Part shown: positions 9,239 to 30,225 of the stretch, one piece after another
How positions within the stretch are numbered: the first letter of the stretch is position 1
Layout: each line of letters begins with the position of its first letter
DNA from: Vermiphilus sp.
GTDB lineage: Bacteria > Ratteibacteria > UBA8468 > B48-G9 > DTJG01
NCBI GenBank assembly: GCA_020722805.1
Contig: DYKA01000008.1
Location: 1-36,749 of the forward strand
Reading direction: 5' to 3'
DNA: 36,749 nucleotides
Made by a program: the position numbers and the translations under genes
The notes under the pieces: model-generated
What the model was told of the DNA's origin: nothing
Databases searched by the model: none
What the model saw: only the letters and a program-made list of their open reading frames with translations

Positions 9239-9283
9239 TGCATATTCAGCAGCCGACAAATCAAACCAGGCAGGGATCCCTTG

Positions 9284-14276: not shown

Positions 14277-14277
14277 T

Positions 14278-15372
14278 ATGAAAGTCATTTTGATGTTGCC
14301 TGAAATGGATATTGGAGGAGTTGAAGAAGGAACATACGACCTCGCCCGCGAGATGAAAAAATCAGGAATTGAGGTTGTGGTTGTTGCAGGATATGGCAGG
14401 TATATCCCGTTGCTGAAAGAAGAAAAAATCAGATGGTTTGACTTGCCCACGTGCAGGAAAACCCCGAAGGTTTTTCTTGATGCAGTAAAAAAACTTAGGC
14501 ATATTATTGAGATTGAGAAACCCGATATTCTCCATTGCAGAAGCAGGTTCCCTGCATGGATTGGTTATTATGCACTGAGAAAAAAGTCCACAACAAAATT
14601 CGTCACAAGTATTCACGGCTACCTCAGATTTACTCCATATAGTAAGATTATTGGCAGGGGGCAGCGGATTATTGCAATCAGTGATGCCCTTGCTAAATTT
14701 GTTGTAAAAAAACTTGGAGCCGATCCTGCAAATGTACGAGTGGTACACAATGGAATAAGATTTCATCCGTATGTGAACATTCAAAAACAGAAACATCCTG
14801 GATTTGTTATTTGCGGTATTGGAAGGCTGACAAAAATTAAAGGGTTCCAGAATTTAATCCGTGCAGCAGCAGAAGCGAAAAAAAATAGACCAGACATAAA
14901 ACTCTGTATTGTTGGAGATGGCCCCTGGAAAAAAAACCTTGAACGGCTTGATAGGAAACTGAATGCAAAAACAGAGTTCCTGAGCGGTAGAGCAGCTGAA
15001 TTCTTGCCACAGGTAGATCTGCTTGTTGCCCCGCATTTGGAAACAGAGCCGCTTATAGAAGGGAAAATACCCTGGCTCGGCAGAAGCGTTTATGAGGCAC
15101 AACTGGCAGGAATACCTGTAATAAGTACTCTTCGTGGAATCAAGGAAAACAAGTTCATTAAGACCAATACTGCACTTATCGTTCCACCAGCAGATGTTGT
15201 TGCCCTGACCCAGGCCATAACATATGCCGCAAACAATCCAGAGGAAATGTTAAATCTTGCTGAGAGCGGGAGGAATTTTGTCCTGAATCATTTTTCAGTT
15301 GAAGATATGGTGAACAAAACAATACAGGTGTACCGGGAAGTTCTTCAGGATTCACAGGAACATGGCAGATAA
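14278..15372 (+). CDS. Glycosyltransferase family 4
   Basis: 364 residues, GT-B fold. N-terminal MLPEMDIGGVEEGTYDLA carries the acceptor-side GG-E-x loop common in GT4. ILHCRSRFPAW and TSIHGYL follow, then VVHNGIRF as the hinge. The C-terminal donor domain has GIGRLTKIKGFQNLI, IVGDGPWKKNLE and VYEAQLAGIPVIST, which fits the EX7E region although the first Glu is not certain. The start at 14278 lies one base after the upstream stop; the longer reading from 14221 runs inside the GT9 gene and is unlikely. Probably an LPS-core or O-chain transferase acting on the cytosolic face of the membrane. Sugar donor unknown. Confidence 0.87.
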   Translation: MKVILMLPEMDIGGVEEGTYDLAREMKKSGIEVVVVAGYGRYIPLLKEEKIRWFDLPTCRKTPKVFLDAVKKLRHIIEIEKPDILHCRSRFPAWIGYYALRKKSTTKFVTSIHGYLRFTPYSKIIGRGQRIIAISDALAKFVVKKLGADPANVRVVHNGIRFHPYVNIQKQKHPGFVICGIGRLTKIKGFQNLIRAAAEAKKNRPDIKLCIVGDGPWKKNLERLDRKLNAKTEFLSGRAAEFLPQVDLLVAPHLETEPLIEGKIPWLGRSVYEAQLAGIPVISTLRGIKENKFIKTNTALIVPPADVVALTQAITYAANNPEEMLNLAESGRNFVLNHFSVEDMVNKTIQVYREVLQDSQEHGR

Positions 15373-16354
15373 ACAGAAAATACTTTTGATAAAAACAGGT
15401 GCTTTCGGAGATGTCGTGCTTTGCTCCTTTTCAATAAATATGGTATCCAAAACCTATCCTGATGCTGATGTTTATCTTCTCACGTCTGAGCAATATTCAG
15501 AAATCCATCGTGACTGTGGTCTTCTTAAAGGAATTCTTGCGTTGCCGAACACAAGAAACATCTTCCACTTTATCCATTTCACAAAAAAATTAAGAAGAAT
15601 GAAATTTCAGAAAATTTTTGACATTCAAGGAAATCTGAAAACAAACTTTTATGCCTTTGCTTTTGGCGGTATGAAAAGAATCGGTCTGTATAAAAAAATT
15701 CTTGGAAAAATTTTCCTAACAGATGCAATTAAAAAAAAATCAGGTGTTAATCCTGTTGAGTCTCAAATGTTATTCTGGAAGAAAGCCACCGGTAGTCAAA
15801 CAGGAGGATGCCTTCAATTGTGGATTTCTGGTGAAAAAAGGAAAAATTTTTCTGTCTTTCTTGAAAAGTATAAACTGTCGCCTAAACAGTATGTTGTATT
15901 TCATACATCTGCATCAAATGAATGGGAGACGAAAAAATGGATACATAAGTACTGGGTAGGTCTCGGGGACTTCTTTTCAAAAGAGAACCTTCCAGTCGTT
16001 CTTATCGGAGACAGGAATTCAGTTGAATTGAATGGGAAAATAGGAAAACTTATCAATGGAAAAGTTGTAAATCTTGCCGGAAAAACAGATTTTTTTGAAC
16101 TTGCCCTCGTCATTCAACATGCAAAACTGTGTATAACAACCGACAGTGGTCCAATGCATGTCGCCTCTGCGGTAGGGACAGAAACTGTGGCAATTTTTGG
16201 TCCGACAAATCCATACTGGCACGCTGCACCTGGAATCAAAATTGTCAGAAGTCAGATTGACTGCAGCCCATGTTATAAAAAAAGATGCAGCCATCATTCA
16301 TGTATGAAATCAATCACCCCGAAAAAAATTATCGCTGTGATTGAAAATCAATAA
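15362..16354 (+). CDS. GT9 heptosyltransferase-family glycosyltransferase
   Basis: 330 residues. The catalytic GD (residues 16-17, KTGAFGDVVL), NEWETKKW near 186-193, the donor-site DSGPMH at 261-266 and FGPTNPYW are all present, so it should be active. A Cys tail (Cys301, 304, 309, 314) is of the kind often seen in this family and may bind a metal. The family adds heptose or related sugars from ADP-activated donors to the LPS core. No heptose synthesis genes are in the window, so the sugar is open. ACAGGA precedes the ATG, and the gene overlaps the GT4 gene by 11 bases. It ends a transcription segment: a new promoter lies across its stop codon. Confidence 0.9.
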   Translation: MADKQKILLIKTGAFGDVVLCSFSINMVSKTYPDADVYLLTSEQYSEIHRDCGLLKGILALPNTRNIFHFIHFTKKLRRMKFQKIFDIQGNLKTNFYAFAFGGMKRIGLYKKILGKIFLTDAIKKKSGVNPVESQMLFWKKATGSQTGGCLQLWISGEKRKNFSVFLEKYKLSPKQYVVFHTSASNEWETKKWIHKYWVGLGDFFSKENLPVVLIGDRNSVELNGKIGKLINGKVVNLAGKTDFFELALVIQHAKLCITTDSGPMHVASAVGTETVAIFGPTNPYWHAAPGIKIVRSQIDCSPCYKKRCSHHSCMKSITPKKIIAVIENQ

Positions 16355-16374
16355 ATTCATAGTATAATTAGTCA
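16341..16374 (+). promoter_or_regulatory. Sigma70-like promoter abutting nucleotidyltransferase gene
   Basis: TTGAAA at 16341-16346, a 16-base spacer and a consensus TATAAT at 16363-16368. The ATG is at 16375, six bases after the -10 box, so the mRNA should be leaderless or nearly so. It would drive the sugar-nucleotide and transferase genes down to 28023, all co-directional with short gaps or overlaps. Confidence 0.6.
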
Positions 16375-17118
16375 ATGAAAAAAAAGACTGCGGGCATCAT
16401 TCTTGCTGGCGGGAAAAGTTCCAGATACGGTGAAAAAAAGCACAAGTTTCTGGCCAGTTTTTCTGGAAAACCTTTAATTGTTAGAACGCTTGAAGCGATA
16501 ATACCTGTTGTTGACTGCACTGTCATTGTTACAAGTCCAGACAACTCAGAAACAAAAGAAACACTCAAGGGATTCCAGAATATCAGATATGCAATTCAAA
16601 AACAACCACTTGGAACCGGACATGCTCTCCTGTCCACTGATTATATATTTGAGAATACGGATTATACCCTGCTGGTTAGTTATGCCGACAAACCGCTTAT
16701 TACAACCAGAACCTTCAGGAAACTTGTTGTAGAACATGTTAAAAGTGGTGCAGACATCACAATTGCTACCGCTGTACTTCCCCTGCCCGGAAGCAAAGGA
16801 AGAATCATAAGAAAAAATGGGAAACTTACAGGGGTAATAGAAGCAAGGGACGCAGACCCTGAAATACTGAGAATAAAAGAGGTGAATGCCGGTTTTATCG
16901 TATGTGAGAGTCGCTCCATATACAAACAGTTGAGAAAAATAAGTAATAACAACGTGTCAAAGGAATATTACCTTACTGATGTCTATGCGGAGTATCTGAA
17001 GGATGGACTTTGCATTCATACCGTCAGAATCCAGCCAGAAGAAAGCTGTGATGTAAATACTCTTTCTGACCTGGAAAGAATTGATCAGTGGATAACATCT
17101 GTCAGAAAAGCAGAATGA
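16375..17118 (+). CDS. GlmU-type UDP-N-acetylglucosamine pyrophosphorylase domain protein
   Basis: 247 residues, a nucleotidyltransferase matching the N-terminal half of GlmU without the left-handed beta-helix acetyltransferase half. Visible are LAGGKSSRYGEKKHKF (nucleotide loop), KQPLGTGHALL, SYADKPLI, GRIIRKNGKLTGVIEARDAD, KEVNAGFIV and KEYYLTDV. The usual product is UDP-GlcNAc from UTP and GlcNAc-1-phosphate. It is first in a promoter-led run whose next four genes process UDP-GlcNAc-derived uronates, so a pathway-dedicated supply of UDP-GlcNAc is likely. Another sugar-1-phosphate substrate cannot be excluded. It overlaps the next gene by ATGA. Confidence 0.85.
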   Translation: MKKKTAGIILAGGKSSRYGEKKHKFLASFSGKPLIVRTLEAIIPVVDCTVIVTSPDNSETKETLKGFQNIRYAIQKQPLGTGHALLSTDYIFENTDYTLLVSYADKPLITTRTFRKLVVEHVKSGADITIATAVLPLPGSKGRIIRKNGKLTGVIEARDADPEILRIKEVNAGFIVCESRSIYKQLRKISNNNVSKEYYLTDVYAEYLKDGLCIHTVRIQPEESCDVNTLSDLERIDQWITSVRKAE

Positions 17119-18098
17119 ATAATGAAAAAAGAATAAGGGTTGGTGTTATTGGGGGCGGGTACTGGGGAAAGAACCTGATAAGAGTTTTCCATCAGGCTGG
17201 TGTTCTGCATGCCATATGCGACATAGACAAAAATCTCATTATAACGTATGAAAAACTCTATCCTGATGCAGACATATTTTCCAGTCCTGAAAAATTAATC
17301 AAGAGTTCTGAGATAGATGCTCTTGTTATTGCTACTCCTGCCTCAACACATTACAGTATTACAAAATCTGCCCTTGAAAACGGCAAGAATGTATTCTGTG
17401 AAAAACCCCTCGCCCTGACTGTCAAACAGGGAGAGGAACTTGTGAAGATTTCATCAGACAATAAACTCGTCTTGATGGTCGGCCACATCCTGCATTATCA
17501 TCCGGCTGTGGAAAAACTCAAGCAGGCGGTAAAACAGGGCGAACTCGGGAAGATTGAATACATTTATTCAAACCGTACCAATATCGGACGGATACGGCAT
17601 GAAGAAAACATTTTATGGAGTTTTGCGCCGCACGATATTTCCTTGATGCTTTCGCTCACTGGATCCCTGCCCGTTGAAGTATCATCGCACGGCGGCATAT
17701 TTCTGCCTCATAGTGTTGAGGATGTAACACTGACATTTTTTTCTTTTCAAAACAATATCAAAGCGCATATCTTTGTATCGTGGCTTAATCCTTTCAAGGA
17801 ACAAAAATTCGTTGTAATAGGAAACAGGAAAATGGCCGTCTTTGATGATACGGAGAAAGACAGGAAACTTGTTTTTTATCAGCACAGAATCAACTGGAAC
17901 AATAGCGAAATACCAACAATTGAAAAAGCAGAAGCAGAAGTTGCTAAAATTGAAAATGATGAGCCGTTAAGAAAGGAAGCAGAACACTTTATCAAGTGCG
18001 TGGAAAAGGGAGAAAAACCACACACTGATGGAAACGAAGCACTGAATGTTCTGAGAGTTCTGGAACAGGCAGAGAAATGTTTAAGGAGAAAAAGATGA
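17115..18098 (+). CDS. Gfo/Idh/MocA oxidoreductase, WbpB/WlbA-like
   Basis: 327 residues. N-terminal Rossmann GVIGGGYWGKN (about 9-19), IATPASTHY and the family motif VFCEKPLAL near 96-104. NRTNIGRIRHEENILW and FAPHDISLM match the UDP-GlcNAc-uronate 3-dehydrogenase type (WbpB in Pseudomonas, WlbA in Bordetella). That enzyme oxidises UDP-GlcNAcA at C3 for transamination by the WbpE-type enzyme two genes downstream. The start at ATG 17115 gives an ATGA overlap; a GTG at 17088 would add nine residues in the upstream gene. The gene order B-D-E-I follows and supports the assignment. The WbpA-type UDP-GlcNAc 6-dehydrogenase that must feed it is not in the window. Confidence 0.88.
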   Translation: MNNEKRIRVGVIGGGYWGKNLIRVFHQAGVLHAICDIDKNLIITYEKLYPDADIFSSPEKLIKSSEIDALVIATPASTHYSITKSALENGKNVFCEKPLALTVKQGEELVKISSDNKLVLMVGHILHYHPAVEKLKQAVKQGELGKIEYIYSNRTNIGRIRHEENILWSFAPHDISLMLSLTGSLPVEVSSHGGIFLPHSVEDVTLTFFSFQNNIKAHIFVSWLNPFKEQKFVVIGNRKMAVFDDTEKDRKLVFYQHRINWNNSEIPTIEKAEAEVAKIENDEPLRKEAEHFIKCVEKGEKPHTDGNEALNVLRVLEQAEKCLRRKR

Positions 18099-18679
18099 AT
18101 GATTATTTTGTTCACGAATCATCCTATGTTGACGATAATGTTGTAATCGGGAAAGGAACAAGGATATGGCATTTCTGTCATATACTTTCAAGAACCAAAA
18201 TAGGCAATAATTGTGTAATTGGACAGAATGTAATGATAGGACCTGATGTCGTGATTGGAAACAACTGCAAGATACAGAATAATGTTTCTATCTACAAAGG
18301 GGTGCTTCTTGAAGACGATGTATTTTGTGGCCCATCATGCGTTTTCACCAATGTGATAAATCCGAGAGCATTTATAGAAAGAAAAAATGAATTTAAAAAT
18401 ACCATTGTCAGAAAAGGTGCTACCATAGGCGCCAACGCCACAATTGTCTGTGGCAATACAATTGGTAGATACAGCCTTATAGGTGCAGGGGCAGTGGTCA
18501 CCCATGATGTTGTTGATTACGCACTTATGGTGGGCGTACCTGCAAGAAGGATTGGCTGGGTTTGTAAGTGTGGAACAACTCTTGGCGGAAAAGACCCTGT
18601 TCTTATCTGTAAACACTGTGGAAATCAATATATTTTTAAGGAAAATACTCTGAAAGAAATTGTTAGAGAACAGGAGTGA
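18095..18679 (+). CDS. Hexapeptide-repeat N-acetyltransferase, WbpD/WlbB-like
   Basis: 194 residues. Left-handed beta-helix hexapeptides run from about residue 10 to 150 (VVIGKG, KIGNNC, VVIGNN, IGANAT, IGAGAV). VTHDVVDYALMVGVPARRIGWVCKCG leads to a C-terminal zinc-ribbon-like CKC plus CKHC pair, common in this family. Predicted to acetylate the 3-amino group of UDP-GlcNAc3NA, giving UDP-2,3-diacetamido-2,3-dideoxy-glucuronate. AAGGAG at 18082-18087 places the start at ATG 18095, overlapping the upstream stop, rather than at ATG 18077. It lies between the predicted dehydrogenase and aminotransferase of the same pathway. Confidence 0.88.
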   Translation: MNDYFVHESSYVDDNVVIGKGTRIWHFCHILSRTKIGNNCVIGQNVMIGPDVVIGNNCKIQNNVSIYKGVLLEDDVFCGPSCVFTNVINPRAFIERKNEFKNTIVRKGATIGANATIVCGNTIGRYSLIGAGAVVTHDVVDYALMVGVPARRIGWVCKCGTTLGGKDPVLICKHCGNQYIFKENTLKEIVREQE

Positions 18680-18681
18680 TA

Positions 18682-19824
18682 ATGAACATTGCAATGCTTG
18701 ACTTAAGACGTGAATATCTTTATATGAAGAATAATATTGATGCGGCCATTGAGAGGTGTCTTGAGCATCAATCATGGATACTGGGACCCGAAGTAAAAGA
18801 ATTTGAAAAAAAATGCGCCGAATTTCTTGGGGTTAAACACTGCATTGGTTGTTCTTCAGGAACAGACGCTCTTGTTATTGCTCTTCGCGCAATTGCCATA
18901 AACAACGGGAAAGAATTTTTTACTCCTGATGAAGAAATACTTACAACCCCTTTTACTTTCACTGCGACAGGTGATGCAATACTAAGAAGCGGCGCCACGC
19001 CTGTATTTATAGACATAAACCCTGAAGATTTCAATGTCAGCATTGATGCGGTACTCAGGTATCTCAGGTTAAACGGGAAAAAAGTGAAAATAATTTTACC
19101 TGTGCATTTATACGGTTCTCCCTGCAGTATGGATGCTATTTCTGAAATTGCATCCAGTTATAATATTTTCGTCGTTGAAGATGTTGCCCAGGCATTCGGT
19201 GCCAGGTGGAAAGATAAGAAACTCGGAACAATAGGTCATACGGGGGCGTTCAGTTTTTTCCCGAGCAAGAACCTTGGTGGATTTGGAGACGGCGGAATGC
19301 TATCAACAAATGATGATCATCTTGCAGAAATAATGAGAACCCTTACAAAGCATGGAGGAAAAGACAAGTATAATGTTGACCATATTGGTTATAATGCCCG
19401 GCTTGATACTCTTCAGGCGGCAGTTCTGCTCGCAAAGATGAAATATACTGATGAATTCAACAGCAGAAGAGTAATGATTGCAAGAAGATATAACGAGCAG
19501 CTGCACGAAATAAAAGAGATTGAATTGCCCGCTATCCATGAAGGAAGTGTTTTTCATCAATATACAATAAGGATCAAAAATGGCAGAAGAACCCGGCTGC
19601 AGGAATTCCTGAAGCAGAAGGGAATTGCAACAATGGTTTATTATCCATTCTGCCTGCATCAGATGAAAGTTTTTCAGGGTAGGTCAAAAACTTTCGGAAA
19701 TCTTTCAGAAGCAGAAAAGGCATCAAGAGAGGTACTTAGCATCCCGATTGAACCGCTTATGACAGAGCAAGAGCAACACTACGTAATATCAAGTATAAAA
19801 GAATTTTTTCTTCCAAATGGATAG
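18682..19824 (+). CDS. DegT/DnrJ/EryC1 aminotransferase, WbpE-like
   Basis: PLP enzyme, 380 residues. Visible are GCSSGTDALVIAL (cofactor phosphate site), TPFTFTATGDAI, VEDVAQAFGARW, and FSFFPSKNLGGFGDGGM with the Schiff-base lysine. YNARLDTLQAAVL is also family-typical. In this gene order it should transfer an amino group from glutamate to the 3-keto sugar made by the WbpB-like enzyme. CAGGAG at 18671-18676 favours ATG 18682 over GTG 18676. The last eight bases overlap the epimerase gene. A different keto-sugar specificity is possible, but the flanking B, D and I genes make this the most economical reading. Confidence 0.9.
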   Translation: MNIAMLDLRREYLYMKNNIDAAIERCLEHQSWILGPEVKEFEKKCAEFLGVKHCIGCSSGTDALVIALRAIAINNGKEFFTPDEEILTTPFTFTATGDAILRSGATPVFIDINPEDFNVSIDAVLRYLRLNGKKVKIILPVHLYGSPCSMDAISEIASSYNIFVVEDVAQAFGARWKDKKLGTIGHTGAFSFFPSKNLGGFGDGGMLSTNDDHLAEIMRTLTKHGGKDKYNVDHIGYNARLDTLQAAVLLAKMKYTDEFNSRRVMIARRYNEQLHEIKEIELPAIHEGSVFHQYTIRIKNGRRTRLQEFLKQKGIATMVYYPFCLHQMKVFQGRSKTFGNLSEAEKASREVLSIPIEPLMTEQEQHYVISSIKEFFLPNG

Positions 19825-20941
19825 GTTCAGAATATTTTCCATTACAGGCGCAAGACCTCAATTTATCAAACTTGCCGCAATAACAAGACAGTTATATTGC
19901 TCTGAACTGCATAAGAAGATTGAACACAGGATACTTCATACCGGACAGCACTACGACTGTGAGATGTCAGAAATCTTTTTTCAGCAGCTGAAAATACCCA
20001 GACCCGATTACAATCTTGGAGTAGGTTCCCACAGCCCGGCAAAACAGATAGGTTTGATGATGAGCGGTATTGAAAAAATCTTTGTCAAAGAAAAACCAGA
20101 TCTTGTTATCGTATATGGAGATACCAATTCTACCCTTGCAGGTGCTATAACTTCTGTGCATCTGGGTATTCCTGTTGCACATGTTGAAGCAGGCTTAAGA
20201 AGTTTTAGAATGGATATGCCGGAAGAAATCAACAGGGTTCTGAGCGATAGGATTTCCACACTTTTGTTTTGTCCCACAAAAACTGCCGTGAAAAATTTAA
20301 AAAAAGAGGGTATTACAGAAAATGTCTGGATGGTGGGGGATATCATGTATGACATCTTTTTACATGCTCAAAAGTACCTGAACAACACAGAAATTTTAAA
20401 CAACTATAACCTGTCTCCAAAAAATTATCTTCTCTTAACCATCCATAGAAAGGAAAATACAGATGATCCCCGGTCTCTAATAAGAGTACTTGATGTGCTG
20501 GAACAGTCAGAAGAAAAAACTATCTTTCTGCTTCATCCGAGAACAGAAAAATTCTTAAAAGGAGTGAGGCAATTCAGATTTGAAAGATACAGGAAACTGA
20601 TGTTTTCAAAACCGGTTGGATATATTGATATGCTCATCCTTGAAAAAAACGCAAAAAAAATCATCACAGACAGTGGCGGGGTCCAGAAAGAGGCATTCTG
20701 GTTTAATGTTCCCTGCATTGTATTAAGAGAAGAAACAGAGTGGAAGGAACTGCTATTCTGGCGGCATTTTCATCTTGTCGGCAATAATGTTGTCAGATTG
20801 CAAAATTCCATAAAATCTGCCTGCAGAATCAATAAACAAAAAACCTGGACCCCTGGAAAGGGTAATACATCATTGCTGATTCTGGAAAAAATCACTAGAT
20901 GGCTGTGCTGGAAATCATCATGCACAAAAGGCCTTGAATAA
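19817..20941 (+). CDS. Non-hydrolysing UDP-GlcNAc 2-epimerase family, WbpI-like
   Basis: 374 residues, GT-B-like epimerase fold. Motifs seen: TGARPQFIKLA (about 10-20), HTGQHYD, VYGDTNSTLAGA, HVEAGLRSF, MPEEINRVL, TIHRKENTD and ITDSGGVQKEA near 288-298. The family inverts C2 of UDP-GlcNAc or of its uronate derivatives. As the last of a B-D-E-I run it is predicted to give UDP-2,3-diacetamido-2,3-dideoxy-mannuronate, the WbpI product. UDP-ManNAc formation (WecB) is the alternative. The C-terminal 30 residues after the last motif are unusually Trp, Lys and Cys-rich and may be local. Its stop shares one base with the next start (TAATG). Confidence 0.9.
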   Translation: MDRFRIFSITGARPQFIKLAAITRQLYCSELHKKIEHRILHTGQHYDCEMSEIFFQQLKIPRPDYNLGVGSHSPAKQIGLMMSGIEKIFVKEKPDLVIVYGDTNSTLAGAITSVHLGIPVAHVEAGLRSFRMDMPEEINRVLSDRISTLLFCPTKTAVKNLKKEGITENVWMVGDIMYDIFLHAQKYLNNTEILNNYNLSPKNYLLLTIHRKENTDDPRSLIRVLDVLEQSEEKTIFLLHPRTEKFLKGVRQFRFERYRKLMFSKPVGYIDMLILEKNAKKIITDSGGVQKEAFWFNVPCIVLREETEWKELLFWRHFHLVGNNVVRLQNSIKSACRINKQKTWTPGKGNTSLLILEKITRWLCWKSSCTKGLE

Positions 20942-22134
20942 TGAATATTGGAATGATACTCGACGGTGAATATCCTCCAGACATAAGGGTTGAAAAGGAA
21001 TGCAGCGCTTTATCAAAAAACGGATTAAATATTTTTGTTCTCTCCTGCATCAAGGGACAAAAACCATATATAAAAATAGAAAAAAAATATAAAAATGCAA
21101 CTGTTTGTTATACTGCATTTGATTATCCTGATAAAATAAGAAAAATCTTAAGAAGACGCACACTCCTTCAACGAAAAATACTCCAATTTATAGATGACTA
21201 TAAAATTGATGTGATTCACGCTCATGATTTGCCTGTGGCTAATGCTGCTTTGAAACCAGCAAGAATAAAAAAAATTCTACTTGTTTCAGACTTGCATGAA
21301 AATTATCCGTATTGCCAGATAATAGGCAGAAGAAAAAGTATACTGAAATTCAAAAGGTGGTTTAGAATTGAAAAAAGGGTTGTGCGCAAGTCTAACTTTG
21401 TTATTACAACCTGTGATGAAATGAAAAAAAGAATTGTTTATGACCACAGTATTAACCCACGAAAGATCATTGTGGTTTCAAATGTGTACGGGGATGAATT
21501 TGAAAATATAAAGGTTGATGAGTCCATAGTGAATAAATATAAGAATAGAAAAATGTTTCTGTATGCCGGTGTAATAAATACAAGAAAGGGATGCAAAACA
21601 TTGATAGAGGCGGCATGTTATCTCAAACAGTATCCTGAAATTTTGTTGTGCCTTGTTGGTGTTTCAAAAATAGATGAGAAAATAAGAAAACTTCAGGATA
21701 TGGTGTCTTGCAGAAAAATTGAGAATCAGGTTGAGTTTGTTCAGTGGCAGCCGTCCGACAGAATTTATTCGTATATTATGGCAAGTCATGCTTGTATTGT
21801 GCCCTTTGAAAGAAATATTCAGAATGACTGTTCTTCTCCTCACAAACTCTTTCAGTATATGGCATGCGGAAAGCCAGTAATTGTTTCTGACTGCCCTTCA
21901 ATAGCAAATATTGTAAAAAAGAATAACTGCGGGCTTGTTTTTGAAGGCGGAAACAGCAGGGACCTTGCAGAAAAAATGCTTGTTCTTTATAAGAACAGCC
22001 ATATGTGTAGTGTAATGGGGAAGAATGGCAGGGATATGGTGGAACACAGATACAACTTCAAAGTTGAGGGTGAAAAACTGTTCAATCTGTACAGGAAAAT
22101 GGTTCATTCCCTGTGTTATAATAAGAAAGAATAG
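20941..22134 (+). CDS. Glycosyltransferase family 4
   Basis: 397 residues, GT-B. Acceptor domain starts MILDGEYPPDIRVEKECSAL and has VIHAHDLPVANAAL and VSDLHENYPY, features of GT4 proteins using UDP-linked amino sugars or uronates. The donor domain has VVSNVYGDEF, FLYAGVINTRKGCKTLIEA, LVGVSKIDEKI and CSSPHKLFQYMACGKPVIVSDCPS. Directly after the WbpI-like gene, it is a candidate for transferring the diacetamido-mannuronate residue, but that is inference from position. The reading frame is visibly more A/T-rich than its neighbours, with long A runs around 21060-21190, suggesting it came in separately. Confidence 0.88.
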   Translation: MNIGMILDGEYPPDIRVEKECSALSKNGLNIFVLSCIKGQKPYIKIEKKYKNATVCYTAFDYPDKIRKILRRRTLLQRKILQFIDDYKIDVIHAHDLPVANAALKPARIKKILLVSDLHENYPYCQIIGRRKSILKFKRWFRIEKRVVRKSNFVITTCDEMKKRIVYDHSINPRKIIVVSNVYGDEFENIKVDESIVNKYKNRKMFLYAGVINTRKGCKTLIEAACYLKQYPEILLCLVGVSKIDEKIRKLQDMVSCRKIENQVEFVQWQPSDRIYSYIMASHACIVPFERNIQNDCSSPHKLFQYMACGKPVIVSDCPSIANIVKKNNCGLVFEGGNSRDLAEKMLVLYKNSHMCSVMGKNGRDMVEHRYNFKVEGEKLFNLYRKMVHSLCYNKKE

Positions 22135-22159
22135 AAACCTTGGTGAAACAGGACGGCAT

Positions 22160-23122
22160 ATGATAAAAGGAAAAAAATTTTTCATCACAGGCGGTGCAGG
22201 ATTCATTGCAACAAATCTGATAAAACAGATAATTTCTCACAACAAGATTACTGTCTATGACAACCTGTCAAGAAATTCACTTGCTCGTTCAGAATTGTGG
22301 AATCATCAGAATTTGAATGTTATCAAAGGTGATATACTTGACTACGAACTTCTGAAAAAAAGTATTCCTGAAGACACAAACATAATAATTCACATGGCAG
22401 CGATCGCCGGTGTTGACACTGTTATTAAAAATCCTGTTGCGACAATGAAAGTTAATATGATTGGAACTTACAATATATTACAGGTATTATCTGAATTGGA
22501 TATTATCAGTAAACTTGAAAGATTCATAAACTTTTCTACAAGCGAGGTTTTTGGGATAAACGCATTCAGGGTGAGTGAACTATCTTCAACAAATCTGGAA
22601 CCAGTTGGAGAAGCAAGATGGACATATTCCATAAGCAAACTCTGCGGGGAACATCTTGCATACAGTTTTCACAAACAGTATGGACTCGCGAGCACAATAA
22701 TCAGACCATTTAATGTTTATGGACCAGGACAGGTGGGAGAAGGTGCCATACATCATTTTATAACAAGAGCAATAAAAAACGAACCGGTTATTATTCACGG
22801 AGACGGTGATCAAATAAGGTCCTGGTGCTACATAGACGATATGGTGAAAGGAATAATACTGTGTATGGAAAACAATCGTGCACCCGGGGAAATTTTCAAT
22901 ATAGGTAATCCAAAAGGAACAATCACAATATTGAATCTTGCAGAAAAAATAATACAAATCGCCGGATCGTCTTCTGAAATTGTTCACGTGCCCAAACCAT
23001 ATATTGATGTTGAATTGCGTATACCAAATATTGAAAAAGCCAAGCGATTACTGGGTTTTGAACCCGAAATAGAACTTAATGAAGGAATAGAAAGAACCAT
23101 CAAGTGGTACAGAGAGAACTGA
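22160..23122 (+). CDS. NAD-dependent epimerase/dehydratase (extended SDR)
   Basis: 320 residues. Rossmann motif FITGGAGFIATNL near residues 8-20, HMAAIAGVD, NFSTSEVFG and the catalytic WTYSISKLCGEH (Tyr-x3-Lys), then RPFNVYGPGQ. It belongs with nucleotide-sugar 4-epimerases, 4,6-dehydratases and ArnA-like decarboxylases. The segment EPVGEARWTYSISK is closest in style to ArnA/UDP-glucuronate-type members, but I cannot name the substrate. The next two genes are an aminotransferase and an acyltransferase, so a keto-sugar product for amination and acylation is likely. The start at ATG 22160 fits a GGA-containing site; the longer frame from 22025 runs inside the GT4 gene and is rejected. Confidence 0.87.
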   Translation: MIKGKKFFITGGAGFIATNLIKQIISHNKITVYDNLSRNSLARSELWNHQNLNVIKGDILDYELLKKSIPEDTNIIIHMAAIAGVDTVIKNPVATMKVNMIGTYNILQVLSELDIISKLERFINFSTSEVFGINAFRVSELSSTNLEPVGEARWTYSISKLCGEHLAYSFHKQYGLASTIIRPFNVYGPGQVGEGAIHHFITRAIKNEPVIIHGDGDQIRSWCYIDDMVKGIILCMENNRAPGEIFNIGNPKGTITILNLAEKIIQIAGSSSEIVHVPKPYIDVELRIPNIEKAKRLLGFEPEIELNEGIERTIKWYREN

Positions 23123-23129
23123 AACTTCC

Positions 23130-24251
23130 ATGAAAGATATGATGAGACTTTCGAGGCCATTGATAAAAAACAGAGTGGAATTTTTCAGAATGTTGAATGA
23201 AATTCTGGATACCGGTTTTTTGACGCAGGGGAAATATGTCACACTGTTTGAAAACAAGATTGCCGAATACCTGCGGATAAAATACGCAGTGGCAGTGAGC
23301 TCGGGCACAGCCGCACTGCATCTTTCTCTCGCAGCAGTGGGGTTGCAGGAGAAAGACGAGGTCATTATCCCTGCCTATACATTTCCAGCCACTGCAAACA
23401 TAGTTGAAATGCTCAAAGCAAAACCAGTATTTGTGGATGTTGATCCATTTACATTTAACATTGACGCAGGAAAGATTGAAAAAAAGATAACTCCCAGGAC
23501 AAAAGCAATCATCCCGGTACATCTTTTCGGTAATCCTGCTGATATGGACCCCATTATGAAGATAGCACAGAAACATAACCTGGCAGTGATTGAGGATGCT
23601 GCAGGTGCTTTCGGCTCGTCGTACAGAAATAAAAAGTGCGGAACTATAGGGAACATCGGCTGCTTCAGTTTTCACCCGAGAAAAATCATTACAACATTTG
23701 AGGGCGGTATGATTGTAACAGATGACAACCTGATAAACCAGAAACTTCGCATACTTAGAAATCATGGACTGAAATCTGATGGAATATTTTCAAATCTTCT
23801 GGAGTGCGGCTATAACTACAGGATGAGTGAAGTTCAAGCAGCACTGGGAATTATTCAAATGGATATGTTTCAGGATATTGTTAGGAAACGCAAAGATCTT
23901 TTCAATATCTATGCCAGCCTTCTTATGAAAATCCCTGAGGTATTCATGCAAAAATGTTTACCTGACTCTGACCCGGTGTGGCAGGCTCTTGTGATCTATT
24001 TGCAAAATGCACATTCTCGTGAAATAATACGCTTACTGCGCGCCAGCAGAATTGAAGCGAATATCGGCACCTATGCGCTTCATCTAACTGACTATTACCG
24101 GACAAGATACAGGAATACCCGGTATCCTGTTGCACACCAATTATATGAAAGATGTGTCGCATTACCTTTTTATAATGAAATGACGCTGTCTGAAATGAAA
24201 CAGGTTGTAAAAACACTGAAAGAAAAGATATATGAAGTTCAAACCACATAA
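23130..24251 (+). CDS. DegT/DnrJ/EryC1 sugar aminotransferase
   Basis: PLP enzyme, 373 residues, the second of its family here. Motifs: AVSSGTAALHLSLAAVG, VIIPAYTFPATANIV, IEDAAGAFGSSY and CFSFHPRKIITTFEGGM carrying the Schiff-base lysine, then YNYRMSEVQAALG. It is clearly distinct from the WbpE-like paralog at 18682; the SFHPRK form is typical of 4-keto sugar aminotransferases. With the SDR before it and a hexapeptide transferase overlapping its end it makes a second amino-sugar set. The product is probably a 4-amino-4-deoxy sugar, but this is inference. ATGs at 23139 and 23142 are alternative starts. Confidence 0.88.
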   Translation: MKDMMRLSRPLIKNRVEFFRMLNEILDTGFLTQGKYVTLFENKIAEYLRIKYAVAVSSGTAALHLSLAAVGLQEKDEVIIPAYTFPATANIVEMLKAKPVFVDVDPFTFNIDAGKIEKKITPRTKAIIPVHLFGNPADMDPIMKIAQKHNLAVIEDAAGAFGSSYRNKKCGTIGNIGCFSFHPRKIITTFEGGMIVTDDNLINQKLRILRNHGLKSDGIFSNLLECGYNYRMSEVQAALGIIQMDMFQDIVRKRKDLFNIYASLLMKIPEVFMQKCLPDSDPVWQALVIYLQNAHSREIIRLLRASRIEANIGTYALHLTDYYRTRYRNTRYPVAHQLYERCVALPFYNEMTLSEMKQVVKTLKEKIYEVQTT

Positions 24252-24756
24252 GATTAACGCAAGCCATGGAACAGGCAGGTTCAGGTTAAAGGACTTTGGG
24301 TCTCTGGGCGCAAATGTTATCTTTGAAAAAGGAGTACTTGTTTTCCATCCGAAAAACATTGAAATCGGAAACAATGTCTATATAGGCCACTATACGATTC
24401 TGAAGGGTTATCATAAAAACAAAATGATAATAGGCGACCACACCTGGATAGGACAGCACTGCTTCCTTCACAGTGCCGGTGGATTGTTTGTTGGAAGAGG
24501 AGTTGGTATAGGACCAGGAGTCATAATACTGAGCTCACAGCACGAAATCATAAATCGCGATCTACCCGTGTATTTCAATCCTTTGAAGTTTGAAAAAGTG
24601 ATACTGGGAGATGGATGCGATATAGGCGCTGGAGCAATAATCCTGCCCGGAGTTGAAATTGGCAGAGGATCTGTAATAGGTGCTGGCGCTGTAGTAACAG
24701 ATAATGTTCCTGATTATGAAATATGGGCAGGGGTTCCTGCAAGAAAAATCAAATAG
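24232..24756 (+). CDS. Hexapeptide-repeat acyltransferase
   Basis: 174 residues of left-handed beta-helix: IEIGNNVYIGHY, MIIGDHTWIGQH, LFVGRGVGIGPG, VILGDGCDIGAGA, VEIGRGSVIGAGA, ending in VTDNVPDYEIWAGVPARKI. The SSQHE segment in the loop holds the usual catalytic His. It could N-acetylate the amino group installed by the preceding aminotransferase, whose end it overlaps by 20 bases, or O-acetylate the glycan. The cysE/wcaF/lacA-like family does not distinguish these. It lacks the C-terminal zinc ribbon of the WbpD-like paralog. Cytosolic by sequence. Confidence 0.88.
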   Translation: MKFKPHKINASHGTGRFRLKDFGSLGANVIFEKGVLVFHPKNIEIGNNVYIGHYTILKGYHKNKMIIGDHTWIGQHCFLHSAGGLFVGRGVGIGPGVIILSSQHEIINRDLPVYFNPLKFEKVILGDGCDIGAGAIILPGVEIGRGSVIGAGAVVTDNVPDYEIWAGVPARKIK

Positions 24757-24760
24757 AATA

Positions 24761-25804
24761 ATGCGAGTTCTTCATTTACCGGTTAATACTGCATCAATAC
24801 CTTCTCATACTGTAAGGGGACTCTGCAAAATTGGCATTGATGCACGAGGACTTGTCTATGGTTCATCAAGAATCCAATCCTTTGAAAGATTGAAAGTTAT
24901 TGGTTCAAATGCAAAACCAGCCAGATATAGTATTGCATGGTTCCTGTGGGTATATAATTTTTTCAGATGGACAATGTGGGCAGATGTCATCCACTGGTAT
25001 TGCGGTGCATCAGCACTTCTTCCATTTGACCTTGACATTCTTTTCCTTCGTTTGCTTCGCAAGAGTTGTATTGTGGAATGGCTCGGCTCAGACATAAGGA
25101 TTTCTGAAATTGAGATTAAGGACAATCCATATTTCAGAAGTATCGTTTCAAATCTGCCCGGGTACGGAAGGGCTGAAAAATCTTATAAAAAACAGACCGA
25201 ATTTGCAAAAGCAGGCTTCGTAAGCATTGTGTCAGTTGGCATGTTAAGGTATATTAAGCCGGATACTTTTCAAAAAATTTTTATCGTGCCTCAAAGACTT
25301 GTTCTATCTGATTATCAACCCGTGTATCCTGACCCGAACAAAATAAAACCTATCCTCGTACATTCTCCTTCCAATCCAGTAATCAAAGGAACTCAAAGAC
25401 TAATAAATGTAATAGAAAAACTTCAAAAAAAGTATGAATTTGATTTCAAGTTAGTCAGTGGAATTCCGCGTGAGGAAAACCTTAAAATCATTCAGAAAGC
25501 GGATATCTATTTAGACCAGTTTATAATCGGAGACTACGGCATGGCTGCCTTAGAAGCAATGGCGTTGGGTAAACCGGTCCTGTGTTATATCAAGCCATCA
25601 ATAATAGAACAGTATCCAGCTGATTTTCCTGTTGTTAATGCAAATCTTGATAACCTTGAAAGTGTGCTGGAACCTTTGATTAATGATGGTAAATTGAGGA
25701 ATAAAATAGGGAAACTGGGAAGAAAATATGTGGAAAAATACCACGATGCAGAAAAAATAGCAAAACAACTGGTCAGGATATATAATGAGTTGAAACGCAG
25801 GTGA
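24761..25804 (+). CDS. GT-B glycosyltransferase (GT4-like)
   Basis: 347 residues. The N-terminus MRVLHLPVNTASIPSHTVRG looks like a GT4 acceptor domain. The middle has DVIHWYCGASALLPFDLD and VEWLGSDIRISE, seen in a loosely defined group of surface-polysaccharide transferases. The donor domain has ILVHSPSNPVIKGTQRLI, KADIYLDQFIIGDYGMAALEAMALGKPVLCY, the latter matching the GT4 EX7E region less one residue. The start at ATG 24761 is four bases after the upstream stop; the longer frame from 24704 is a shadow of the acyltransferase. Sugar and linkage unknown. Confidence 0.82.
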   Translation: MRVLHLPVNTASIPSHTVRGLCKIGIDARGLVYGSSRIQSFERLKVIGSNAKPARYSIAWFLWVYNFFRWTMWADVIHWYCGASALLPFDLDILFLRLLRKSCIVEWLGSDIRISEIEIKDNPYFRSIVSNLPGYGRAEKSYKKQTEFAKAGFVSIVSVGMLRYIKPDTFQKIFIVPQRLVLSDYQPVYPDPNKIKPILVHSPSNPVIKGTQRLINVIEKLQKKYEFDFKLVSGIPREENLKIIQKADIYLDQFIIGDYGMAALEAMALGKPVLCYIKPSIIEQYPADFPVVNANLDNLESVLEPLINDGKLRNKIGKLGRKYVEKYHDAEKIAKQLVRIYNELKRR

Positions 25805-25832
25805 AAATTTTTTCAAAACAATCTATCGTGTC

Positions 25833-27080
25833 ATGAACAAAAGGGTATTATACATAACCTACCATTTCCCGCCGTCAAAAAAAGTGGGTGCGGTGAGAGC
25901 AAAAGGATTTGCAAAATATATGCCCGCTTTTAACTGGAAAGTTACAGTTCTTTCGCCTGTTCTTCCGGGAAATCCAGACAGCCAGTTTCACATTGTGGAA
26001 ACCCATCCGCCCTACCAGAAAATACTTCCATATATCCTTGATTCAAAACTCCGCAGACGGATGAGAAACATCCCGTCCTGTATGCCGGCGATTCACAAAA
26101 GAATCTATTCATTTTTTAGAGGAATGATAGATATCCCAGATAGCAGAATCGGCTGGCTCCCATTTGCAGTGTGTGCGGGTAAAAAAATTATTGAGAAAGA
26201 AAAACCATATGCAATTGTAAGCAATTTTGGTCCTGCTACCTGCCACATAATTGCCTCATATCTTAAAAAATCTTATCCTGAAATTTTCTGGCTTGCTGAT
26301 TTCAGAGACCCGTGGACACAATTCAGAAATCCTTCATTAAGAACCAGTTTTGAAAAGTCCCTTGAGAGTAAAACCCTCAGGCATGCCGATGCTTTATCCA
26401 TAGTTTCAGAATACCTTGCAGATGCGCTCCGTAGGGATTATCCTGATAAACGGGTTTATGTTATCCCGAACGGTTTTGACCCTGATGAGATGACAACAGA
26501 AAACAATCCTGAGACACCTATGTTCGTAATCACTCATACCGGCTCACTGCACCCGAAATTTCGAACACCAGAGATTCTTTTCAAAGCGCTGCAAAATCTC
26601 ATTAAATTGAAAAAAATCAGGAAAGAGCATATCAGGGTAATGTTTTATGGACACAACCAGTTATGGGTTTTGAAACAGGCATGCCAGTATAATCTCAAAG
26701 ATATTGTATCTTATGAGGGCACAAGAAACCGTGAGGAAATCCTTGAGATTCAAAGAAACAGTCAGATTCTTCTGCTCATCTGGCGTTCCGGAAAAGGCGA
26801 AGAGGGAACCCTGACTGGAAAAATTTTTGAATACCTTGCTGCTGGAAGATCAATAATTTCTATAGGTGAAAATGCAGGTGAGGTTGAACGACTTCTTCAA
26901 AAAACAAATGCCGGTGTGCATTGCAGAACTGTTTCAGAAATACAAGATTTACTCTACCGGGAATATCAACAGTGGCTGGCAGACGGCAGGGTAAAATATG
27001 AAGGTGTTAGGCAAGAGATAATGAAATACAGCCATATAGAAATGGCAAGAAAATTTTCACAGGCAATAGAAAATGGTTAA
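25833..27080 (+). CDS. Glycosyltransferase, GT4-like
   Basis: 415 residues. N-terminal YITYHFPPSKKVGAVRAKGFAKYM is the common GT4 opening. IVSNFGPATCHIIASYLK, WLADFRDPWTQ, ALSIVSEYLADAL and VIPNGFDPDEM follow. The donor half has THTGSLHPKFRTPEILFKAL and GTLTGKIFEYLAAGRSIISIGE near 330-350, in place of the classic EX7E. Unusually it is preceded by 28 bases with no clear ribosome site. It overlaps the deacetylase gene by eight bases. Probably cytosolic and membrane-associated. Donor and acceptor unknown. Confidence 0.85.
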   Translation: MNKRVLYITYHFPPSKKVGAVRAKGFAKYMPAFNWKVTVLSPVLPGNPDSQFHIVETHPPYQKILPYILDSKLRRRMRNIPSCMPAIHKRIYSFFRGMIDIPDSRIGWLPFAVCAGKKIIEKEKPYAIVSNFGPATCHIIASYLKKSYPEIFWLADFRDPWTQFRNPSLRTSFEKSLESKTLRHADALSIVSEYLADALRRDYPDKRVYVIPNGFDPDEMTTENNPETPMFVITHTGSLHPKFRTPEILFKALQNLIKLKKIRKEHIRVMFYGHNQLWVLKQACQYNLKDIVSYEGTRNREEILEIQRNSQILLLIWRSGKGEEGTLTGKIFEYLAAGRSIISIGENAGEVERLLQKTNAGVHCRTVSEIQDLLYREYQQWLADGRVKYEGVRQEIMKYSHIEMARKFSQAIENG

Positions 27081-28023
27081 ATTCCAGTTTATTAAGACAC
27101 TGAAGATTCTACTTGAGCCATTCAAGCCAGATAATTATGAACTTAATAAGTTCATAACTTTTATGAAGTTTGATGGATACGCTGACCACTTCTATAAAAT
27201 AAAAAAATTGTTATCCCGCAGATACAGAGAAAACCAGCAATTGATTGTTTCAAGAAAAATTTCGCTGATAAGAAAAAGATTTGCTGAATTCTCAGGAAGA
27301 CAGTTTATACCGGAAAATGACATCTATCTTGTCAGGGTTGATGACTATCCCCACTGGGAATACAAGAATGACCTTTTTGAAAAATTTGCTGAAATTTTTG
27401 AGGAAAAAGGAATAAACTTTCTTGTCGGAGTGGTTCCGGAACTGAGTGAAGACCGCCACAATACCATGAACAAAAATTTCAGGAAACTCAGCGATAGGGA
27501 TGCGATAACCTTAAAAAAGTTTTCGGTTCTTGAATTGGCATTGCATGGACTCACCCACCAAACAATCAGAAAAAAACCATATTCAGAATTTGCAGGGCTG
27601 TCCGTGAAACAAACTGCTGAAAGAATTGAAAAGGGAGTTGAAACCCTCAAACAATTCGATTTTTTCCCCGCGGGGATTATCTCCCCATTTGATACATTTA
27701 ATTCAAGGAATTTTCAGGCATTCTCCTCTTTTTTCAAAATCATATGCGGCGGCTACCCAAGTGCGTCAAGTTTCGGCTTCTGGATTTCGCCGTGCGTGAT
27801 AAACAATTCGGTTTATATTGCCTCTTACAGTCCGTTTTCAGGAAAAGCGAAAAATATTTTAAGACACCTGTCCGAGAAAAAAAATCAGTCCGAGGTGATA
27901 TCTATTACAATTCACTGGGCAAGTGAAGTGGAAAACAATTTTCTTTACGTTAAACAGATTGCAGAAATAATAAAAGGTAGAACCCTTTCGTGGAAAAGGT
28001 TTGCCGACCTTTACTGCAGATGA
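27073..28023 (+). CDS. Polysaccharide deacetylase-like protein (CE4/DUF2334 type)
   Basis: 316 residues. After a Lys-rich N-terminal 90 residues comes a NodB-like core: YLVRVDDYPHWEYKN supplies the catalytic Asp pair, and ELALHGLTHQT the H-x3-H metal motif. FPAGIISPFDTFNSR follows, and VISITIHWASE may supply the last His. It should remove N-acetyl groups from a sugar, fitting a pathway full of N-acetylated sugars, but substrate and even enzymatic activity are inferred. No signal peptide is seen, so it would act in the cytosol on a lipid-linked or monomeric substrate. It is the last + strand gene of the locus; its stop is only five bases from the stop of the convergent GT9 gene, with no terminator hairpin between. 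Confidence 0.75.
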   Translation: MVKFQFIKTLKILLEPFKPDNYELNKFITFMKFDGYADHFYKIKKLLSRRYRENQQLIVSRKISLIRKRFAEFSGRQFIPENDIYLVRVDDYPHWEYKNDLFEKFAEIFEEKGINFLVGVVPELSEDRHNTMNKNFRKLSDRDAITLKKFSVLELALHGLTHQTIRKKPYSEFAGLSVKQTAERIEKGVETLKQFDFFPAGIISPFDTFNSRNFQAFSSFFKIICGGYPSASSFGFWISPCVINNSVYIASYSPFSGKAKNILRHLSEKKNQSEVISITIHWASEVENNFLYVKQIAEIIKGRTLSWKRFADLYCR

Positions 28024-28028
28024 AAAAA

Positions 28029-28850
28029 TCAAACAATACCAAGGGAATTTTTGCCTGCTTCAATCACTTCCTCAACAGAAATATCAAGCAAACATCTGCG
28101 ATTATATGGGCACCGGGATTTTGCCCTGCGCATCTTGCAGGGAGAACACTCCAGTTCTTTGTAAATGGCTATGCTTCGCGGGCTGAGCGGGCCCCACTTC
28201 ACGGGACTTTTCAAACCAAAAATACCCACAATTGGAGTGTTGACCAGCCCTGCAAAATGCAGCCTTCCACTTTCATTACTTATGCACAGTTCGCTTTTCG
28301 CACAAAACAAGGCACCATAAACGGGATTTCTCCCAAATTCATCATCAATCAAAGCCGGAATTACAGGCTTGTGTGTCATTCTTTCTGCAACGTGCTTCAA
28401 CAATTCCATTTCCTTGTAACTTCCCAGCAGGAGCACAGAATATCCATACTCGCAGAAAGCGTCTGCGACAGCAGCAAATCTTTCGGCGGGCCAGCGTTTC
28501 ACAGGTTCAGATGCACCAGGAAAAATACAAACCCGCTTCCCTGTTAGAGAAAGGATACTGGATACTTTTTCTTCGTAATGCGCAGGGAACCTGATGTCAA
28601 CCCATGTCTTAACATCCCTTTTACCCAGCACCCTGCACAGGGCAAGCAACTGAAAAATATCATGAACATTCTTTCTTCCTCTCTGATTAAATCTCCAGTT
28701 TGAAAAAAGACATCCTGTGCCATAACCGAGCCGGTACTTAACCGGCAACAGTGCAAGTATCAGATTTATAACAGAATATCTCTGGGTATCTATCAAAAGG
28801 CCAACATTCTCTTTCAGACACAGACAAAAGAGAGAAAACCATTTCTTCAA
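28029..28850 (-). CDS. GT9 glycosyltransferase, C-terminal part of a frame-split gene
   Basis: 273 residues beginning at TTG 28850. It starts inside the fold (VGLLIDTQRY equals the third strand) and contains PGASEPVKRWPAERF, NESGRLHFAG (donor-site motif, Asp replaced by Glu), GIFGLKSPVKWGP and the Cys tail ECSPCKMRRAKSRC. The missing N-terminal third, with its GD motif, is the overlapping ORF at 28847-29143 in the +1 frame. Joining them by a -1 shift at the A7 run (28859-28865 on the + strand) gives a normal-length GT9 of about 370 residues. Translation could also restart at the TTG, whose first base lies in the stop region of the upstream ORF. This half is visibly more G/C-rich than the N-terminal part. 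Confidence 0.8.
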   Translation of the reverse strand: MKKWFSLFCLCLKENVGLLIDTQRYSVINLILALLPVKYRLGYGTGCLFSNWRFNQRGRKNVHDIFQLLALCRVLGKRDVKTWVDIRFPAHYEEKVSSILSLTGKRVCIFPGASEPVKRWPAERFAAVADAFCEYGYSVLLLGSYKEMELLKHVAERMTHKPVIPALIDDEFGRNPVYGALFCAKSELCISNESGRLHFAGLVNTPIVGIFGLKSPVKWGPLSPRSIAIYKELECSPCKMRRAKSRCPYNRRCLLDISVEEVIEAGKNSLGIV

Positions 28851-29143
28851 AACCTCTCTTTTTTTCTCATTCTCAATTCATAATAGATGTCAACAAATGG
28901 TAGAATTTCAGAAAATTTTTCAAGACCACTTAATCTGTGTCCAACAAAAATTATCCTTGATTGAGGAAACATTTCCTTCAATGTTTTGAAAAAAGGCATA
29001 GAAAGCATAAAATCGCCGTAGTGAGATTCACCAATAAAAACCATGATTGTCTTCACTCTGTTCTGAAGTTTGAGATAAGATGGATTTCTGTAAAATTTTT
29101 CAAATCTTTCAGAAGGATAATCAATGGGATGATAAAATTTCAT
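28847..29143 (-). CDS. GT9 glycosyltransferase, N-terminal part of a frame-split gene
   Basis: About 98 residues from ATG 29143 (ATG 29152 and TTG 29185 are also in frame). It carries the GT9 opening TIMVFIGESHYGDFMLSMPFF, with the GD motif that supplies the catalytic Asp, and IIFVGHRLSGLEKF, then stops right after MRKKERF. The rest of the fold is in the -1 frame at 28850. On its own it cannot be an enzyme. It starts within the end of the upstream GT4 gene, which it overlaps by 23 bases. The A-rich codons before the stop include the heptamer AAAAAAA in the phase A-AAA-AAA, which is a slippery sequence. An inactivating indel, a sequencing or assembly error and programmed frameshifting are all possible. 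Confidence 0.72.
   Translation of the reverse strand: MKFYHPIDYPSERFEKFYRNPSYLKLQNRVKTIMVFIGESHYGDFMLSMPFFKTLKEMFPQSRIIFVGHRLSGLEKFSEILPFVDIYYELRMRKKERF
28859..28865 (-). other. A7 run: candidate -1 frameshift site or homopolymer indel
   Basis: On the minus strand seven A residues read A AAA AAA in the frame of the N-terminal GT9 ORF. A -1 slip here enters the frame of the C-terminal ORF with no stop in between; the N frame ends at a TGA about ten bases further on. The -1 frame is closed by a TGA some 20 bases upstream, so the switch must occur in this short window. Confidence 0.6.
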
Positions 29144-30170
29144 AGAAAACATTTTCAAGAATTTTAGTTTGATTGGAATAATCAAATGATTTTATTTCTC
29201 TATTTCCACTAATTGCAATATCCTTCCATTTATCAGGATGTTCAATGAGATACAAAACTGCCTCTGTCAGTCCGTCAATATCACCCGGTCTGCAGATAAT
29301 GGCCGATTCATTTTGCCTGGAAAAATCCTTTATTCCACCGACATCAGTTGTAACAACACAACAGCCACAAGCCATTGCTTCCATAGGTGGATTTGGAGAC
29401 GCATCCTCAAAACTCGGAAAAATCAAAATATCAATACTTCTATAAAACAATAACATTCTATCGCTATTGATTCCATATATAAATTCCACAAAGTTAGGGA
29501 TTTGGCTTTCTTTTTTAAGTCCTGCGACAAGAAACCTTAATTCTGGAAATTTTTGTTTAATATTTTCCATAACCTTGAAACCAATGTTCATTCCTTTATG
29601 AGCAGCATTTTTACCTCCATAAAAAACCATCCCAACTGAAACTGGTTTTTCGTACTTTCTACCTCCAGGATTAAAAAAATTACAGTCAACACCATTACCA
29701 ACACGGTAAATTCTGTGCTGGGGATATAACTGTTTCAAACTTTCATAAACAAATGTTGATGATGGGATAAGAACGATATCATGCGGTATATCCACAGTTT
29801 TTTTAAGCATTTGTATGTTTGATACCCTCATCACCTTTCTCCCTATCTGTTTACTCCATGATGCAATTTCACTTATCAAATTGGCAGACCTGAAGAATGT
29901 TATGTCAGCGTTTCTTATCCATTTTTCTTTATATTCTGGTATGATAATCACAGGGGGCTTGCAATTCATCCAACAAGGATAATATCTTTTTCTTTTCAGT
30001 ATAAAACCTGCAAATTTTCTTATGGTGTATTCAAAACCTTTACTGTTTGGATTATATCCTTTGTATATCAAAACATCATGTTTTTCAGAAAGCCGATTAC
30101 AAAATTCAAGAATTGGACGGGAAGCACCACTGGGTTTTTTACCTATGTTTAAAAGTATATTGATAACCAT
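29121..30170 (-). CDS. Glycosyltransferase family 4
   Basis: 349 residues from ATG 30170, chosen because AGGAAA sits five bases upstream on the minus strand; the frame is open to 30200. GT-B fold: NIGKKPSGASRPILEF opening, ITFFRSANLISEI, YRVGNGVDCNFFNPGG hinge, GMVFYGGKNAAHKGMNI, LVAGLKKESQIPNF and the complete FPSFEDASPNPPMEAMACG (EX7E type) near 265-283. With the GT9 pieces it forms the only minus-strand transcription unit, led by its own promoter and divergent from gatC. Base composition is visibly lower in G/C than most of the window, as in the GT4 at 20941. Substrate unknown. Confidence 0.9.
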   Translation of the reverse strand: MVINILLNIGKKPSGASRPILEFCNRLSEKHDVLIYKGYNPNSKGFEYTIRKFAGFILKRKRYYPCWMNCKPPVIIIPEYKEKWIRNADITFFRSANLISEIASWSKQIGRKVMRVSNIQMLKKTVDIPHDIVLIPSSTFVYESLKQLYPQHRIYRVGNGVDCNFFNPGGRKYEKPVSVGMVFYGGKNAAHKGMNIGFKVMENIKQKFPELRFLVAGLKKESQIPNFVEFIYGINSDRMLLFYRSIDILIFPSFEDASPNPPMEAMACGCCVVTTDVGGIKDFSRQNESAIICRPGDIDGLTEAVLYLIEHPDKWKDIAISGNREIKSFDYSNQTKILENVFYEILSSH

Positions 30171-30195
30171 ATTATTTCCTGTGCAAAATTGAAAA

Positions 30196-30225
30196 ATCAT
30201 ACCATAAATTGCTGAGTTTTTACAA
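30196..30225 (-). promoter_or_regulatory. Promoter of the inverted GT4-GT9 unit
   Basis: On the minus strand TTGTAA (+ strand 30220-30225), an 18-base spacer and TATGAT (30196-30201). The expected start of transcription near 30189 leaves a leader of about 18 bases containing AGGAAA before ATG 30170. It is divergent from the gatC promoter about 50 bases away. Confidence 0.5.

Follow-up and report, generated by a model that had tools for sequence, protein, structure and literature searches.

The glycosyltransferase gene of family GT9 at positions 28029–29143 (minus strand) of the window, the whole 36,749-nucleotide stretch of DNA that was analyzed, is divided between two overlapping reading frames. 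It is very probably a normal GT9 gene with an A-run altered by a one-base slippage indel, the result of either a recent mutation or an assembly or sequencing error. The window is the entire contig C2 of a 1.79-Mb draft genome in 182 contigs (G000), and the gene was delimited by its ORFs, by Pfam searches and by alignment to orthologues.

Results

The N-terminal frame (28847–29143) starts with an ATG at 29143, its product begins MKFYHPIDYPS and contains the motif GESHYGD, and it ends with ...MRKKERF at a TGA at 28849–28847. The C-terminal frame (28029–28877), which contains the GT9 domain PF01075, has its last upstream stop at 28880–28878 and is then open until the stop at 28031–28029. Since the C-terminal frame is closed at 28880–28878 and the N-terminal frame at 28849–28847, the frame switch is confined to about 28877–28850. 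The A7 run at 28865–28859 falls within this sole stop-free interval in the phase A-AAA-AAA and, judged against the intact orthologues, is the frame-change point. The overlapping minus-strand frames and the heptamer phased for −1 slippage, as described in the original prediction, were thus confirmed.

The C-terminal part was assigned to GT9 by Pfam (PF01075, E 1.9e-24, 86.8 bits against a gathering cut-off of 22), and the N-terminal part alone gave no family match in Pfam and NCBIfam model searches. The latter part nevertheless matches the N-termini of each of five full-length orthologues from the same genus with 67–81% identity, and the C-terminal part matches the same five proteins with 70–78% identity. 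As five full-length orthologues match both parts, the split is real by homology and the proposal that the two frames together make one normal GT9 holds. The GD motif and the GT9 domain are in separate frames in the window and in a single polypeptide in all five orthologues. The closest known protein family is that of GT9/LPS heptosyltransferases (PF01075; PDB 3tov and 1psw), from which the window copy differs in being interrupted near residue 95; in searches with the NCBIfam models for heptosyltransferases I, II and III it did not reach the curated cut-offs. GT9 proteins have a GT-B fold. Alignment of the intact G004 orthologue with the GT9 structure 3tov covered residues 39–365 (E 2e-17), the GD motif of the window N-terminal part aligned with H-x-GD of 3tov, and the break corresponded to the N-terminal half of the fold.

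Gene order around the GT9 gene is common to the window and the compared orthologue contigs. Upstream lies an intact gene for a GT4-type glycosyltransferase (29121–30200, minus strand), identified by domain search and gene order as a conserved neighbor, and downstream an intact, convergent DUF2334 gene (27073–28023, plus strand), conserved as a neighbor in three of the five contigs with which the window was compared. A long series of glycan genes, several of them of the families GT9 and GT4, occupies 12232–28023; within it, no counterpart of 20941–22134 was found in the congener contigs compared. Elsewhere in the window, 9281–10861 (plus strand) encodes only the C-terminal half of the carbamoyl-phosphate synthase large subunit (NF003671 positions 549–1055) and lies between genes that directly neighbor each other in G003 and G006; the matching N-terminal half and a full-length CarB are on two other contigs of the same genome (C84:13543–15216 and C50:19552–22671, respectively). 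The ORF at 8288–9238 (plus strand) corresponds to the ATPase/C-terminal part of GMP synthase (TIGR00884, below cut-off) and has no glutaminase domain.

Orthologues were sought in 99 other genomes, among them all seven others of the same genus. Five of these seven (G002–G006) have an orthologue with 70–78% identity, in each case as one open frame of 376–397 amino acids whose translation contains no internal stop. In the remaining two, G001 and G007, the same search gave only remote GT9 matches, and a neighboring protein looked for as a marker of the locus, which we take to be accA-like, was found in neither. A search of 28 genomes of the order with a profile built from the five intact proteins gave the same picture as the protein search and added two genomes of the same family, G009 with a whole gene and G008 with a gene broken elsewhere. 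Protein scans of the genome_contigs and viral_contigs sets with the window C-terminal part gave no matches; the profile matched five records in genome_contigs, consistent with the five genomes G002–G006, and nothing in viral_contigs.

DNA alignment showed that the window has one base fewer at the A-run than all five relatives, and that its sequence 3′ of the run is one base out of their frame. A homopolymer indel or a young decaying gene, two of the options originally put forward, are therefore supported by the five whole orthologues together with the one-base deficit at the A-run. At the break point the five relatives encode M-R/K-K-K-R-E, and their zero-frame heptamers at the same codons are A-AAA-AAA (G003, G005), A-AAA-AAG (G002, G004) and G-AAA-AAA (G006). 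A heptamer of the form A-AAA-AAA or A-AAA-AAG is thus present, identically phased, in four of the five intact orthologues, and a −1 slip at these codons would append just 5–19 residues. Since these intact, straight-read relatives also carry one, the slippery heptamer is incidental and results from the conserved lysines. An unbroken frame without the heptamer in relatives had been named beforehand as counting against the prediction: the unbroken frame was found in all five same-genus orthologues, the lack of a heptamer in only one of them. In the window as a whole A7 occurs 85 times against 64 expected from shuffling, and in the 35 unsplit genes (35.4 kb) A7 is found 26 times in the −1 slippery phase seen at the break, in 16 of these genes. 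The heptamer at the break is not distinctive.

Comparison with G004, the nearest relative, gave a dN/dS of about 0.09 in both the N- and C-terminal parts, an approximate value because dS exceeds 1; both parts would accordingly have been under strong purifying selection. The alignment to G004 showed no further stop, gap or disabling change in the rest of the gene. At sites where G003 and G006 agree, 20 amino-acid changes in GT9 are unique to the window and 11 to G004, against 102 and 123, respectively, in nine neighboring genes (Fisher p = 0.055 for the contrast). This is a non-significant hint that GT9 may be relaxed, or evolving slightly faster, in the window lineage, and the count of 20 versus 11 may lean weakly to a real loss that is not brand-new. 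If real, the break would be young, and the gene has two features of a frameshift pseudogene, namely intact orthologues and one disabling indel.

Frame breaks were also scanned for by comparing congener ORFs of at least 120 amino acids with contig stretches picked for convenience, that is, a non-random sample. In this genome one of 60 testable genes was broken (171 kb examined), namely the GT9 gene. Breaks were flagged in 4/110 genes of G003 (two accepted), 1/123 of G006, 0/19 of G004, 0/16 of G005 and 0/23 of G002, and, in the same family, in 1/8 of G008 and 0/28 of G009. Two G003 candidates were left out of the accepted breaks, one (71511–71823) because it was made up of very small fragments of a short ORF, the other (119058–119604) because its G006 relative seems to end nearby. 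The flagged G006 break was an artefact, the reference being itself the broken G003 gene. The two accepted G003 genes are split at A6–A7 runs at 57409–57418 and 108370–108376 of contig C18, and encode what we take to be a glycosyltransferase and a PilB/GspE-like ATPase. The G008 orthologue (locus L012 on G008:C18) is broken by one base at about 1971–1986 in the locus, near profile residue 254, beside an A7 run other than that of the window; in the congener G009 the gene is whole. Either this break is coincidental, as expected from the background of such breaks, or it hints that the gene is dispensable; it gives no support to a conserved recoding site.

All four accepted breaks (the window gene, the G008 orthologue and the two G003 genes) coincide with a coding-strand A6–A7 run or are at most a few bases away from one, as judged by eye and in a number too small for a rate; among random 10-nt coding intervals 5–7% touch A6 or longer. 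The four breaks at A6–A7 runs therefore point to one cause, homopolymer slippage, either cellular or in sequencing.

Discussion

The results are best explained by a normal heptosyltransferase-like GT9 of a surface-glycan cluster in which a net one-base slip would have occurred in the conserved, A-rich Arg/Lys stretch. Homopolymer slippage would have produced the indel, as a recent mutation or else as an assembly or sequencing error. There is about an even chance that the indel is real and recent, the gene being then a young pseudogene or a polymorphism. In that case the main product would be a fragment of about 98 residues ending at the TGA, presumably inactive since the GT-B fold is interrupted within its N-terminal half. 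The C-terminal piece in addition has no GD motif, so that activity is to be expected of neither piece. By leaky −1 slippage the residual A7 could give traces of the complete enzyme with no selection for this effect; such low-level slippage is leakiness, not a programme.

Somewhat less probable, though a substantial branch of the same explanation, is that assembly or sequencing error alone is responsible and that the cells carry an intact gene. Both halves look fully constrained, the gene has no other break and the genome is a draft in 182 contigs; moreover, isolated frameshifts with an intact homologue are expected to be mostly sequencing errors, as stated in the relevant part of PMC3711429. 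The weak hint of faster evolution in the GT9 gene counts against pure error, however, and the assembly is not error-rich, with a break in just one of the 60 genes tested. Miscounting of A7 is rare in Illumina-type reads. Phase variation, in which slipped-strand mispairing in the A-run would switch a surface-glycan glycosyltransferase on and off, is favored by the position of the gene in a glycan cluster, by the independent break of the distant G008 orthologue at another A-run with G009 whole, and by the use of poly-A/T of at least 7 as a phase-variation indicator in a passage of PMC3711429. It is nevertheless very unlikely: the tract is short, its length is not conserved, since a G interrupts the A-run in three of the five orthologues, the G008 break is at a different place in the gene, and breaks of the same type occur in unrelated G003 genes such as the presumed PilB/GspE-like ATPase. 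Little more can be said for an out-of-frame gene that is kept because ribosome or RNA polymerase slippage at A7 supplies a small, sufficient dose of GT9, the indel being tolerated while it weakens a step in surface-glycan synthesis, possibly as a reversible contingency switch, which we consider improbable. Recurrent independent breaks, here and in G008, would fit this reading, and compensatory frameshifting is a subject of the review PMC5009743. Sections of PMC1088944 and PMC3711429 describe singleton frameshifts or 'pseudo pseudogenes' at poly-A, which the window gene resembles in its A-run break, whole orthologues and lack of a shared split site; the runs studied in PMC1088944 were of nine As, unlike the seven in the window, although slippage at shorter runs is, according to the same source, possible in some bacteria.

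Programmed −1 ribosomal frameshifting, which would fuse the frames at A-AAA-AAA and so set the ratio at which the GT9 enzyme is made, agrees with a correctly phased heptamer inside the sole possible switch interval. Heptamers of the A type readily promote frameshifting in E. coli, and A_AA.A_AA.G with stimulators is among the strongest of those treated in the pertinent part of PMC4066793, where the background lacking both motif and stimulator is roughly 0.05%. The in-phase slippery A-type heptamer is indeed a likeness to the −1 frameshifting of IS elements described there, but here a stimulator is lacking, the split is not conserved and the gene does not belong to a mobile element. Under the stimulator rules given in that part of PMC4066793, no SD-like element was found within 30 nt upstream of A7. 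The downstream stem-loop suggested for inspection was at chance level: the best hairpin beginning 4–10 nt downstream (−13.3 kcal/mol) was equalled or bettered at 24 of 60 random coding control sites in the window, and the 80 nt after A7 folded no better than shuffles (z 0.08). The programmed class, as delimited in a section of PMC3711429, needs a conserved frameshift site, and the split is present in none of the five same-genus orthologues. Because the sister species have the gene whole, the break is an ordinary one and not a programmed frameshift; with all five orthologues unsplit and no stimulator, the proposal has very little left in its favor. The remaining suggestion, that coupled restart at the TTG at 28848–28850 yields two polypeptides acting jointly as a split GT9, is scarcely credible. 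The TTG overlaps the TGA of the N-terminal frame (TTGA) and GAGAGG lies immediately upstream, but this element is just two bases ahead of the TTG, and the five orthologues have GTA, CTG, TTA, CTG and TTT at the position and in no case a start codon (ATG, GTG or TTG). Furthermore, neither piece is a complete domain, since the 3tov alignment places the break within the N-terminal half of the GT9 fold. Even taken jointly, programmed frameshifting, phase variation and split function are improbable, and the preferred reading is that of a one-base slippage indel.

Conclusions

A one-base A-run frameshift in a GT9 gene is ordinary, and the case serves mainly as a caution. In A-rich genomes codon use is enough to generate slippery heptamers, and an A-run that has lost any one base is still in phase for a compensating slip. 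A split gene with an in-phase A7 is therefore no evidence of recoding before its orthologues have been checked. For annotation, both ORFs should be regarded as one frameshifted GT9 gene.
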